A DNA stretch of 64,000 nt from Ostrinia nubilalis (lineage: Eukaryota; Arthropoda; Insecta; Lepidoptera; Crambidae). A program made the translations under genes and the position numbers. The notes beneath the pieces are model-generated. The model saw only the letters and a list, made by a program, of their open reading frames with translations. It did not search any database and had not been told where the DNA came from. Within the stretch, counting starts at the first letter, position 1. The number at the start of each line of letters is the position of its first letter. Below are positions 16,601 through 62,199 of the stretch, in pieces. The stretch spans positions 9,984,501 to 10,048,500 of the forward strand of contig NC_087112.1 in assembly GCF_963855985.1 (NCBI RefSeq), written 5' to 3'.

Positions 16601-19600
16601 TGTAATAATTATGTATTACGAACACCTGGTTACACATAAACTGATCACATTTTATTTAAATTCTAAATTGATAAAATGTAAATAGAACAGAGATGTGACA
16701 AACCACTTCTGGATGGAAGGAGTCAGTTATTTCAGTAAATTACCTGGAAGAACCTGCTGAGGAGCAGTGCTGTAGGTCCTTTAGCTGATATCATCAGCGC
16801 CCAGCCGCGCAATGCTGGAAGACAGCTGAGCTGGTTGGTGAGCCTAATGACAGATATGTAGCAGAACGTTGGATGAAAATTACCTGCAAAGATGAGCAGT
16901 ACAGCTGGGTCCTTTGGATGAGATACTGGAGAACCAGCACCCAGTAAATGTGGGAGTACTTACTTAAAAGCAGCTGATAGAAACAAAACGCTGCTAGATG
17001 GAAGATAAATTACCTGCAGCGATCTACTGATGAGTAGTGCAGCAGGTCCCTTAGCTGATATCATCAGCGCCCAGCCGCACAATGCTGGAAGACAGCTGAG
17101 CTGGTTGGTGAGCCTAATGACAGACATTTAGCAGAACATTGGATGAAAATTACCTGCAAAGATGAGCAGTACAGCTGGGTCTTTTGGATGAGATACTCGA
17201 GAACTAGCACCCAGTAAATGTGCAAGTAACTTACTTAAAAGTAGCTGACAGAAACAAAACTCTGCTGGATGAAGGAGATATTACCTCCAGCGATCTACTG
17301 ATATCATCAGCCCCCGAGCGCTGGGAGGCAGAAGAGCTGATTAAGGCAGCTACAAAGCTGGTTAGAGCGCGAATAGCAGAACAGCGTTGCTGTCCAGTGC
17401 TTGGTATGGTATCATAAAGCAGATAGGAGGTGAAAGTTCTACTATATTACCTGCAAAGACCTACTGATGAGCAGCGCAGCAGGTCCCTTGGCCGAGATCA
17501 TCAGTGCCCAGCCGCCCAGCGCTGGGAGACAGCTGAGCTGGTTGGTGAGCCTAATTACAGAGATGTCATGTAGCAGAATATTGGATACAAATTACCTGCA
17601 AAGATGAGCAGTACAGCTGGGTCCTTTGGATGAAATACTCGAGAACCAGCACCCAGTAAATGTGGGAGTACTTACTTAAAAGTAGCTGGCAGAAACAAAA
17701 CGCTGCTAGATGGAAGATAAATTACCTACAGCGATCTACTGATGAGCAGCGCAGCTGGTCCCTTAGCTGATATCATCAGCGCCTAGCCCTCTAATGGCAG
17801 CTGAGCTGGTTGGAAAGATTTCGACAGAAATATTGCAGAACAAGAACCTGATTGAAAGGGTGCGAGCAATTCTAAAACCTATATTTACCTGTAAAGACCT
17901 ACTGATGAGCAGCGCAGCAGGTCCCTTAGCTGATATCATCAGCGCCCAGCCGCCCAGCGCTGGGAGACAGCTGAGCTGGTTGGTGAGGCGACGACCGAGG
18001 CGCTGCAGGCTGAACGGAGCTACCACGATGCCACTGATGAGCGCCAGGCCCAGGATCGAGGCTGGAAGAAGCAGTATGCAGATTGAGCTTGAACCCAACC
18101 AGTGAATGTCAAGTTTTTCTCGGGGAAAATTAATTGTCATTGGACCTGCAACGAAATTAATCAGAAGAACATAGGAGGAGTTCGAACTTCGAAGCTAAGG
18201 TTTTTATTGGCGGTCAAGCTGTAGATCCTGTCTACACAGGAGTTGCAGTGGTGGGAACGAGAGGTGGGAATAGTCCCGTAGATTGAGCTTGAACATAAAA
18301 TTGATTGATGATTGATTATTACAATTTCCTTTTGACTTTCTCAGGTACCAGTAAAGTTGTGACTGTAGAAGAAGCAAAGTCCTCTCATCATTATAATTTC
18401 AGCCACAGGACCACTGCTAAACAGAGATTCCCCATGGAAAAGACAGTTGCTAATTAAGTATAGAGAGATCTAGAGAGAATAGAGGGAAGAGTTACGTAAG
18501 TCTTTCTTTCCAGTCTTTGTAGCGTCCTTCGTGCGTTTATGTAGGTTTAAGTAAAAACTACATCATCATCATCATCATTTAAGCCACAGGACATCCATTG
18601 CTGAACATAGGCCTCCCCCAATGACTTCTACCTTCGCCTTCCTGCTACCTTTATCAGGTCATCGGTCCACCTTGTGGGTGGACGTGCCACGCTGTATTTT
18701 CCGGTACGTGGCCTCCACTCCAGAACCTTGCTGCCCCATCGGCCGTCAGTTCTGCGTACTATGTGCCCTGCCCATTGCCACTTCAGCTTGCTAATCCGTG
18801 ACTGTCATTCATCCGTGGCTGTCAGTGACTTCAGTTCGTTTACGGATCTCCTTATTTCTGATTTGATCTCGTAAAGAAACACCGAGCATAGCCCTTTCTA
18901 TAGCACGCTATGCAACTTTAAAAACTACAACCATTACGAGTAGGTATATTACTTCAATCCTACATTAAATCGGTGTATGTCATTATCGGTGTTTGACATG
19001 CATGCGGGAAATATAACGTAGGTACCCGTATAGTAACTACTACCTGGTGCAATCAATCAGTCTAGAAGATAAACTGATTAATCGCCTCCGACAAACAAAC
19101 GTTTGTTTTTTTACCGCTTTAAAACGTATTTGACATTCATTGTGACTCGCATTAGCATCTTCGACCTTGACATTATAGTAGAAGTGTTTGGTAAATACAC
19201 TCATTTATTACGCAATGCAATATTTCTGCGATATCTTGATATTTATACAAATAAATCAAAGTGGCAGACTATAAATTTTGGCTATATGTATTTACGATCC
19301 ACATAGACAAACATTCTTTTTTCGTTTATCTGTATGAATTTTGCAAGCTTTTATACCAAAACTTAAACATTCCTACTAAATACCTTGCTGAAATTACTAC
19401 AAGGTGGATCGACGACCTCATAAAGGTAGCAAGAAGGCACGCTGGATGCAAGCCTCTACCAACCGGTCAATCGGTCAATATGGAAATTATTGGGGGCGGC
19501 CTATGTCCAGCAGTGGACGTCCTACGGCTGAAAAGATGATGACTACTTATGAATTGCTGAAATAATGTTTAGACCAACAAGAGCTTAGGAAACAAACTGT

Positions 19601-62100: not shown

Positions 62101-62199
62101 GTGCGAATACATGGCCAGCTCCTGGTCGGCGCGGATGTCGAACATGCGGCACGTGGCGTCGTCGGAGCCGGTCGCAAACGCGAAGCCGGACGGGAAGAA
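59177..62199 (-). CDS. Gbeta13F: Heterotrimeric G-protein beta-1 subunit, last two coding exons (5' part outside window)
   Basis: It pairs with G-gamma and G-alpha at the inner plasma membrane in receptor signalling. Exon 62199-61983 (217 bp, acceptor cccacag, donor gtacgt, phase 1) reads [20 protein letters not shown], then [40 protein letters not shown] and [12 protein letters not shown]. Exon 59283-59177 (acceptor ccgcag) completes it: [35 protein letters not shown] and stop. These are the end of blade 5, blade 6 and the final strands of the seven-blade WD40 propeller, with the invariant IWN C-terminus of G-beta-1/13F. The first roughly 230 residues are upstream of the window. The 2.7 kb intron between the two exons contains many partial copies of the 217 bp exon. 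Confidence 0.93.
60490..61935 (-). repeat. Tandem array of partial G-beta exon copies
   Basis: Four nearly identical 144 bp copies (60508-60651, 61260-61403, 61460-61603, 61660-61803) match the last ~144 bp of the 217 bp exon plus donor gtacgtag. Each is bounded upstream by 'gctcacag' directly before ACCAGGAG. Splicing at this AG would be phase 1, and each donor is phase 1, so each copy is an open 48-codon symmetric unit ([10 protein letters not shown]... to ...MKSERA). Shorter fragments carrying the 'gcgagcgcgctg|gtacgtag' end lie at about 60670, 60738, 61020, 61188 and 61908. One at about 61815 has an altered donor. Older degenerate pieces occur at about 60140-60200 and 61080-61130. Confidence 0.93.
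60822..61026 (-). repeat. 41 bp minisatellite, 5 units, each with a G-beta 5' splice site
   Basis: 'gtgtgagctacgtaccagcg' starts at 60822, 60863, 60904, 60945 and 60986. Each unit continues 'cgctagtgatgtgtcctgct' before the next. On the minus strand every unit presents 'cgcgctg|gtacgtagctc'. Single units also sit between the 144 bp copies at about 61409 and 61611. Confidence 0.92.

Follow-up and report, generated by a model that had tools for sequence, protein, structure and literature searches.

Why should three unrelated genes, neighbours on one chromosome, each carry behind one of their exons a row of partial copies of that same exon? The question is raised by a 64,000-nt stretch of the genome of the moth Ostrinia nubilalis (contig NC_087112.1, positions 9,984,501–10,048,500, hereafter the window; the genome comprises 495 Mb in 52 contigs), in which an initial annotation described tandem arrays of exon 3' ends with their 5' splice sites (donors) in a sugar transporter gene, a Zasp-like gene and a G-beta gene. 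The array survey reported here covers one region of one chromosome, namely the window with 100 kb on each side (264 kb) and, added later in two 10-kb steps, a further 20 kb on the right (284 kb); coordinates outside the window are counted from its first base and marked rel. Exons were placed using human protein sequences, and their splice sites were set by eye. The answer that I favour, with a probability of about two in three, is that the arrays are DNA tandem duplications spanning the 3' end of an exon together with the donor, which would be tolerated since the copies would be spliced out, and which would then have grown by exchange.

The three arrays exist, at positions that lie within a few bases of those first given, slightly further off for G-beta. 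In each of them, as had been described, the intact parent exon lies upstream of all the other units in the direction of transcription, and the copies start inside the exon, without the parental acceptor (3' splice site), and sit in the next intron. Nor are they alone. The 284 kb hold nine exon-tail arrays in four genes: one in the sugar transporter gene, one in the Zasp-like gene, four in G-beta and three in an ABCD-type transporter gene (ABC_membrane_2, near rel 163 kb; hereafter ABC). Seven of the nine are among the 26 local repeat clusters that a self-comparison of the 264 kb returned, and comprise the three of the initial annotation, three more in G-beta and one in ABC; as to the remaining 19 clusters, nine were inspected as sequence and ten were judged by coordinates, repeat coverage or open-frame lists only. 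The other two arrays, at ABC exons 5 and 9, were found in DNA fetched later as a prospective test. It had been remarked that the arrays are all in minus-strand genes; this holds for the first three genes, but the ABC arrays are on the plus strand, and the shared orientation is a coincidence. A 50-kb block of contig C9, taken as an extra comparison (GC content 0.352 vs 0.383), contained two local repeat clusters and no exon-tail array; no clear conserved exon was seen in it, and it is hence little informative.

In the sugar transporter gene, the parent exon (17889–18061, minus strand) has the acceptor CTTCTTCCAG and the donor CAG/GTAAAT (the slash marks the splice site), and blastn and repeat families place five exon-tail pieces on the same strand in the intron behind it, at 17813–17722, 17549–17442, 17342–17298, 17112–17010 and 16842–16740. 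A downstream coding exon of this gene (13682–14806, minus strand) matches Pfam PF00083 Sugar_tr over residues 5–346 (E 1.4e-39), and a Pfam search with the parent exon alone gave no match. Long sugar-transporter-like open frames on both strands, at 877–2223, 11848–13206 and 13682–14806, probably form a small cluster (Pfam was run on 11848–13203 and 13682–14806). A repeat piece at about 18120–18250, directly upstream of the parent exon, recurs at about 10000–10185, 25400 and 27600 (open frames by eye; the 25404–27662 pair from self-comparison) and could mislead exon calling.

The parent exon of the Zasp-like gene (38253–38435, minus strand; acceptor TTTTCCAG, donor GAG/GTAAGA) is followed at 36340–38122 by ten exon-tail pieces on the same strand, again from blastn and repeat families. 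Five of them, at 38122, 37891, 37322, 37088 and 36653, span approximately exon position 80 to the donor, and five are truncated. A copy was called donor-anchored when at least 21 of 34 bases matched across the donor, a rule by which donor-less scraps are under-counted; the eight donor-anchored Zasp-like copies each carry GTAAGA. A repeat family also marks, at 36202–36225 (minus strand), an older and decayed remnant of the exon end with GTGAGA after it. A DNA search of the whole genome with a Zasp unit gave at least nine matches, every one listed at the array. Pfam gave no match for this gene, and it is presumably a Zasp relative, a name taken from the initial annotation.

The first G-beta array follows the penultimate exon, exon 6 (61983–62199, minus strand; donor CTG/GTACGT), which matches WD40_Gbeta (E 2.3e-42) and aligns by tblastn with residues 234–311; among its PDB matches, the best 60 of 340 are all G-beta subunits (E 7e-90 to 3e-46). 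The array itself (about 60492–61951, minus strand) consists of four long copies, with 145 nt of exon, and shorter units of 41 to 87 nt. Fifteen pieces, between 61942 and 60492, are recovered when the exon plus 40 nt of intron serves as the query, nine with the exon alone. The next real exon is the last coding exon, at 59177–59283 (minus strand; tblastn residues 305–340). The self-comparison clusters place the three further G-beta arrays at rel 79771–80113, 70578–73206 and 69209–70100; the exons concerned are 2, 3 and 4. At 61253–61804 the long exon 6 copies begin after an AG at the junction, in phase 1-1, and inclusion of one would give about 48 residues, close to one WD repeat (by eye). Tandem units of 135 bp lie at 62844–64000 of the window and at 1–927 of sequence L019; they are also dispersed in the region and are probably part of a repeat family.

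At the ABC locus, the exon 3 array reaches about rel 165.5 kb, in the first additional 10 kb, where exon 5 has four downstream copies; the ten downstream copies of exon 9 are in the second. By eye, the exon 9 copies have one base fewer than their parent. An insertion bounded by inverted repeats interrupts one copy of exon 3 (rel ~163263–163544); it shows an apparent 8-bp target duplication, and I take it to be hAT-like. A related sequence, with 68% identity, is found about 4.75 kb downstream (rel 168015–168293).

How are the copies built? Their starts within the exon vary, at position 87 of 146, 52 of 171, 59 of 149, 73 of 217, 75 of 173, 81 of 183, and 44 or 92 of 173 (in this list the start of G-beta exon 4 is 26 bases too far upstream, its true length being 123). 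From there each extends past the donor and, without a break, into unspliced intron, giving units of exon tail, donor and intron stretch that follow one another head to tail; the intervals are about 41 to 270 bp, some being longer. The exon 3' end and donor are retained, as the initial annotation had stated: GT is present in 45 of the 47 donor-anchored copies of seven arrays, in all ten copies of ABC exon 9 and in all four of ABC exon 5. Pooled over 35 distinct copies, identity is at least 0.74 from –23 to +6 and 0.37–0.60 at +7 to +10, and it falls most steeply in Zasp. In the G-beta exon 2 and exon 4 arrays, the last copy diverges on its intron side from the internal units at about +7 and +13, respectively, which suggested copying that ends at the donor; this idea was rejected, as other arrays run further, the intron-side ends ranging (by eye) from about +7 to tens of bases with no fixed end point. 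A parent lying upstream, a donor kept and an acceptor lost are the automatic geometry of any tandem duplication that spans a donor, and so constitute one fact and not three. RNA-mediated copying, which the initial annotation had included among its possible shared mechanisms, is not required and was discarded: the copies are local, unspliced, on the strand of the parent and adjacent to it, and their units have the structure of DNA tandem duplications. The marks of a retro-copy (spliced sequence, poly(A) or insertion elsewhere) were not seen.

The units are also mosaic. In G-beta, the units 71706 and 71305 agree at 97 of 117 exon positions and at 34 of 34 positions of the downstream intron, while the Zasp units 38122 and 37088 agree at 102 of 103 exon positions and at 17 of 33 intron positions. 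The simplest reading is that exchange has taken place inside the exon tails, and such exchange could carry parent-like sequence into old units.

Is this arrangement commoner at exons than elsewhere in the region? Nineteen exons were put under a single rule. Seventeen have donors, namely G-beta exons 1–6 (exon 1 taken from the start codon), ABC exons 1–9, and the sugar transporter and Zasp-like parent exons. Each of the 19 was compared by blastn (E <1e-3) with the 5 kb on either side. Downstream matches on the same strand occurred at 11 of the 17 donors, corresponding to the nine arrays and two single pieces, one at G-beta exon 1 (76% identity, 46 nt) and one at ABC exon 2 (37 nt from inside the exon, lacking the donor); none was found within these limits at G-beta exon 5 or ABC exons 1, 4, 6, 7 and 8. 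Upstream, only one of the 19 exons had a same-strand match: ABC exon 1, with short, diverged acceptor-side copies at rel 161284–161308 and 159918–159977. The downstream-only placement noted earlier therefore describes the first three arrays but is not a rule. As controls, 150-nt windows were drawn more than 5.1 kb from the arrays, over 274 kb, under a rule close to, though not identical with, that used for the exons (E limit 2e-3 over both sides jointly, fixed query length). Among 1500 random windows, 85 had a downstream and 86 an upstream match; among 400 GC-rich windows, which come from only 40 one-kb bins, the figures were 99 and 81, with 43 and 37 inverted. The donor count exceeds both sets (p 3e-10 vs random, 8e-4 vs GC-rich), and downstream exceeds upstream, 11 to 1 (p 0.006). 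Without the three exons of the initial annotation and ABC exon 3, 7 of 13 donors have matches (p 3e-6 vs random, 0.046 vs GC-rich). No exon of the 19 had an inverted match within 5 kb on either side, as against 96 (downstream) and 91 (upstream) of the 1500 random windows, a point in favour of tandem duplication. The initial annotation had named, as what would refute it, a genome scan with such arrays at chance level and equally frequent in upstream introns or without donors; regionally, the donors stand above random windows and the downstream side above the upstream one, but against GC-rich windows the excess shrinks and, for the six prospective donors described below, is absent. What survives of the idea of a shared mechanism is a common process acting on unrelated genes above the level of random noncoding windows.

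The process that I favour would run as follows. A duplication across a donor would keep the exon and its donor intact in the leading position and place a partial copy behind them, in the next intron. The first donor would be the first transcribed, and the copies lack the parental acceptor, so they would normally be removed with the intron and be nearly neutral, or "splice-shielded". From two copies on, slippage and unequal exchange would make the array longer. Exchange within the exon tails, that of the constrained parent included, would mix the copies and partly homogenise them. Duplications within an exon or across an acceptor would more often harm the mRNA and hence be lost: when an acceptor is spanned, the partial copy precedes the full exon and may be chosen, and a duplication within the exon alters the protein. 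Together, such a filter by selection, slippage and exchange would explain most of the pattern, while selection acting through splicing may explain only in part the excess at donors and the shortage upstream.

Several results weigh against this account. Tandem duplication does not by itself explain the frequency at donors (11 of 17, vs 85 of 1500 random windows), although the excess is smaller against the 99 of 400 GC-rich windows. When the count is restricted to the six prospective donors (ABC exons 4–9 only, the arrays of G-beta exons 2, 3 and 4 having been in the cluster list before exon mapping), it falls to two of six (p 0.04 vs random, 0.64 vs GC-rich). The asymmetry rests on few genes, and drops to 7 against 1 (p 0.07) without the initially annotated exons and ABC exon 3. 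The retention of GT in nearly all anchored copies might point to use, and 11 of 41 copies have an AG that fits the reading phase with at least 60% pyrimidine in the preceding 15 nt. Finally, the copies differ from their parents in a manner that is not easily explained. In 27 chosen ungapped copies from seven arrays (the arrays of ABC exons 5 and 9, like gapped and truncated copies, being left out), the minimal changes from the parent comprise 64 synonymous and 27 nonsynonymous substitutions. The ratio is 12:2 for Zasp, 10:1 for ABC exon 3 and 17:6 for the sugar transporter, and 14:11, 5:2, 3:0 and 3:5 for G-beta exons 3, 2, 6 and 4, respectively. Even under a model in which the parent is constrained and the copies are neutral, Zasp (p 3e-4), ABC exon 3 (0.002) and the sugar transporter (0.004) depart from expectation and the G-beta arrays (0.06–0.73) do not, p values that are rough, as changes common to several copies are not independent. 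Neutral decay alone was therefore rejected as a misfit to these three arrays.

One way to obtain a synonymous excess from copies that have no function is unequal exchange with the parent. If tails pass between copies and parent, the lineages that pass through the parent would shed amino-acid changes and keep silent ones, and the array would act as a store of silent variants. The mosaic units are consistent with such traffic, and so is the G-beta exon 3 array, in which parent-like and stop-bearing exon types stand side by side; the price is a high rate of exchange together with a high silent diversity. I regard this as possible rather than established, and it would add to duplication followed by removal through splicing, not replace it.

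A less probable alternative, which I consider unlikely, is that the duplications are directed to the donor by a process coupled to transcription or splicing (polymerase pausing, an R-loop or a template switch close to the 5' splice site), selection playing a minor part. The contrast between 11 of 17 donors downstream and 1 of 19 exons upstream, and the two hits among six prospective donors, are what such a process would give, and junctions in the two young G-beta arrays (exons 2 and 4) carry inserts of 26–29 and 62 nt, as in repair with inserts; among the matches listed for the 264 kb and the 50-kb block, none longer than 16 nt outside the arrays offers a source for them. A process guided by the donor sits poorly, however, with intron-side ends that vary relative to it, with GC-rich windows away from the arrays that are also locally repeat-rich (99 of 400), and with the acceptor-side copies at ABC exon 1. 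A bolder extension is that in this species exon 3' ends are duplication hot spots through a donor-linked process, and that their arrays return silent variants to the working exon by unequal exchange, such that, over much of the genome, introns would lengthen and exon tails would co-evolve with a concealed stock of copies. This is speculative and, in my estimate, improbable.

Could some copies be real alternative exons, now or until recently, which would account for both the silent differences and the retained donors? An AG that leaves an open frame and fits the phase, either replacing the parent or being included after it, was sought in 41 copies of the nine arrays, in the span between 100 nt upstream of the copy and 45 nt short of its donor; AG being a frequent dinucleotide, some of these hits may be due to chance. 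Such an AG is present in 32 copies and missing from nine (five of G-beta exon 4, one of G-beta exon 3 and three of Zasp). The pyrimidine-rich ones fall in all three sugar transporter copies, all four long G-beta exon 6 copies, two of five in G-beta exon 3, one of two in G-beta exon 2 and one of three in ABC exon 3, and the long G-beta copies have in addition their junction AG in phase 1-1. These counts, and the mostly synonymous differences of the Zasp, sugar transporter and ABC exon 3 copies, are the case for use as exons. On the other hand, no acceptor position is common to the arrays, and 30 of the 41 copies lack a pyrimidine-rich, phase-fitting AG, on which grounds hidden alternative exons were rejected as a general account. 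By eye, the AG closest to where the copy begins is out of phase in the sugar transporter and ABC exon 3. The open frames are themselves mixed, some copies differing almost only synonymously while others carry stops (W31 in G-beta exon 3, Q40 in exon 4), deletions or a frameshift, and one ABC copy is the one split by the insertion. All five G-beta exon 4 copies scanned are without a phase-fitting AG, as are three of five in Zasp, including 36653, whose silent excess (8:0) is the greatest in that array. Judged from sequence, an exon role is thus unlikely as a general rule and is excluded by the scan for Zasp copy 36653, although copies in the sugar transporter and the long ones in G-beta may still have one. 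That real exons underlie the synonymous excess and the retained donors seems to me quite improbable overall.

A local assembly fault, which short, near-identical units that are hard to assemble might invite, is very improbable given that the units are diverged and in part stop-bearing, that some share an intron part but differ in the exon part or have differing intron parts, that one is split by a transposon-like insertion, and that there are nine arrays in four genes.

If duplication across donors followed by removal through splicing held genome-wide, it would provide a concrete route by which introns lengthen and a natural experiment on the kinds of splice-site duplication that selection will tolerate. 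It would also call for caution in gene annotation and variant calling, exon tails having near-identical neighbours. Given the asymmetry between downstream and upstream, DNA sequence would suffice to test the proposition that the splice site transcribed first prevails.

Two other repeats of the region fall outside these genes' arrays. A minisatellite with 56- and 168-bp units and long minus-strand open frames occupies 5664–6199 of the window, within a cluster (3606–7425) that also holds a 2.7-kb duplication, and a 138-nt (46-codon) in-frame tandem repeat, one of the 19 clusters other than exon-tail arrays, lies at rel –42357 to –42097, inside an open frame of 1452 codons.

How do the arrays compare with known systems? 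In tandem exon duplications and mutually exclusive exons, the copies keep acceptor, donor and phase. The arrays resemble them in placing exon copies in a neighbouring intron and differ in that the copies are without the parental acceptor. Among the literature matches listed, as far as titles and abstract openings go, donor-bearing exon-tail arrays in following introns were not reported. Tandem duplication is reported to create new introns (PMC4974935; PMC2891723, on near intron pairs of Drosophila). The near intron pairs are alike in that a local tandem duplication includes a splice or proto-splice site and splicing then acts on the copy, but the outcome there is a new intron or intron position (PMC2891723), whereas the arrays described here are all partial copies within the existing next intron, after its donor, and no new intron was identified among them. 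For the polyubiquitin gene UBC, it has been proposed that repeat expansions containing splice sites are less harmful since they can be spliced out (PMC10809524). Tandem repeats tolerated in this way are the common element; in UBC, the dual-specific splice site arrays consist of whole coding monomers that are used in the protein, and here the units are exon tails plus intron. AG/GT is not found at every unit end either, G-beta exons 4 and 6 and ABC exon 9 ending in TG/GT, which sets these arrays apart from the dual-specific kind. In Cryptococcus, intron gain by repeat expansion is attributed to slippage, unequal crossing over or gene conversion multiplying a unit (PMC2395259). There, as in the moth, the unit that is multiplied bears a splice site; in Cryptococcus it amounts to complete introns, and in the present arrays to partial exons.

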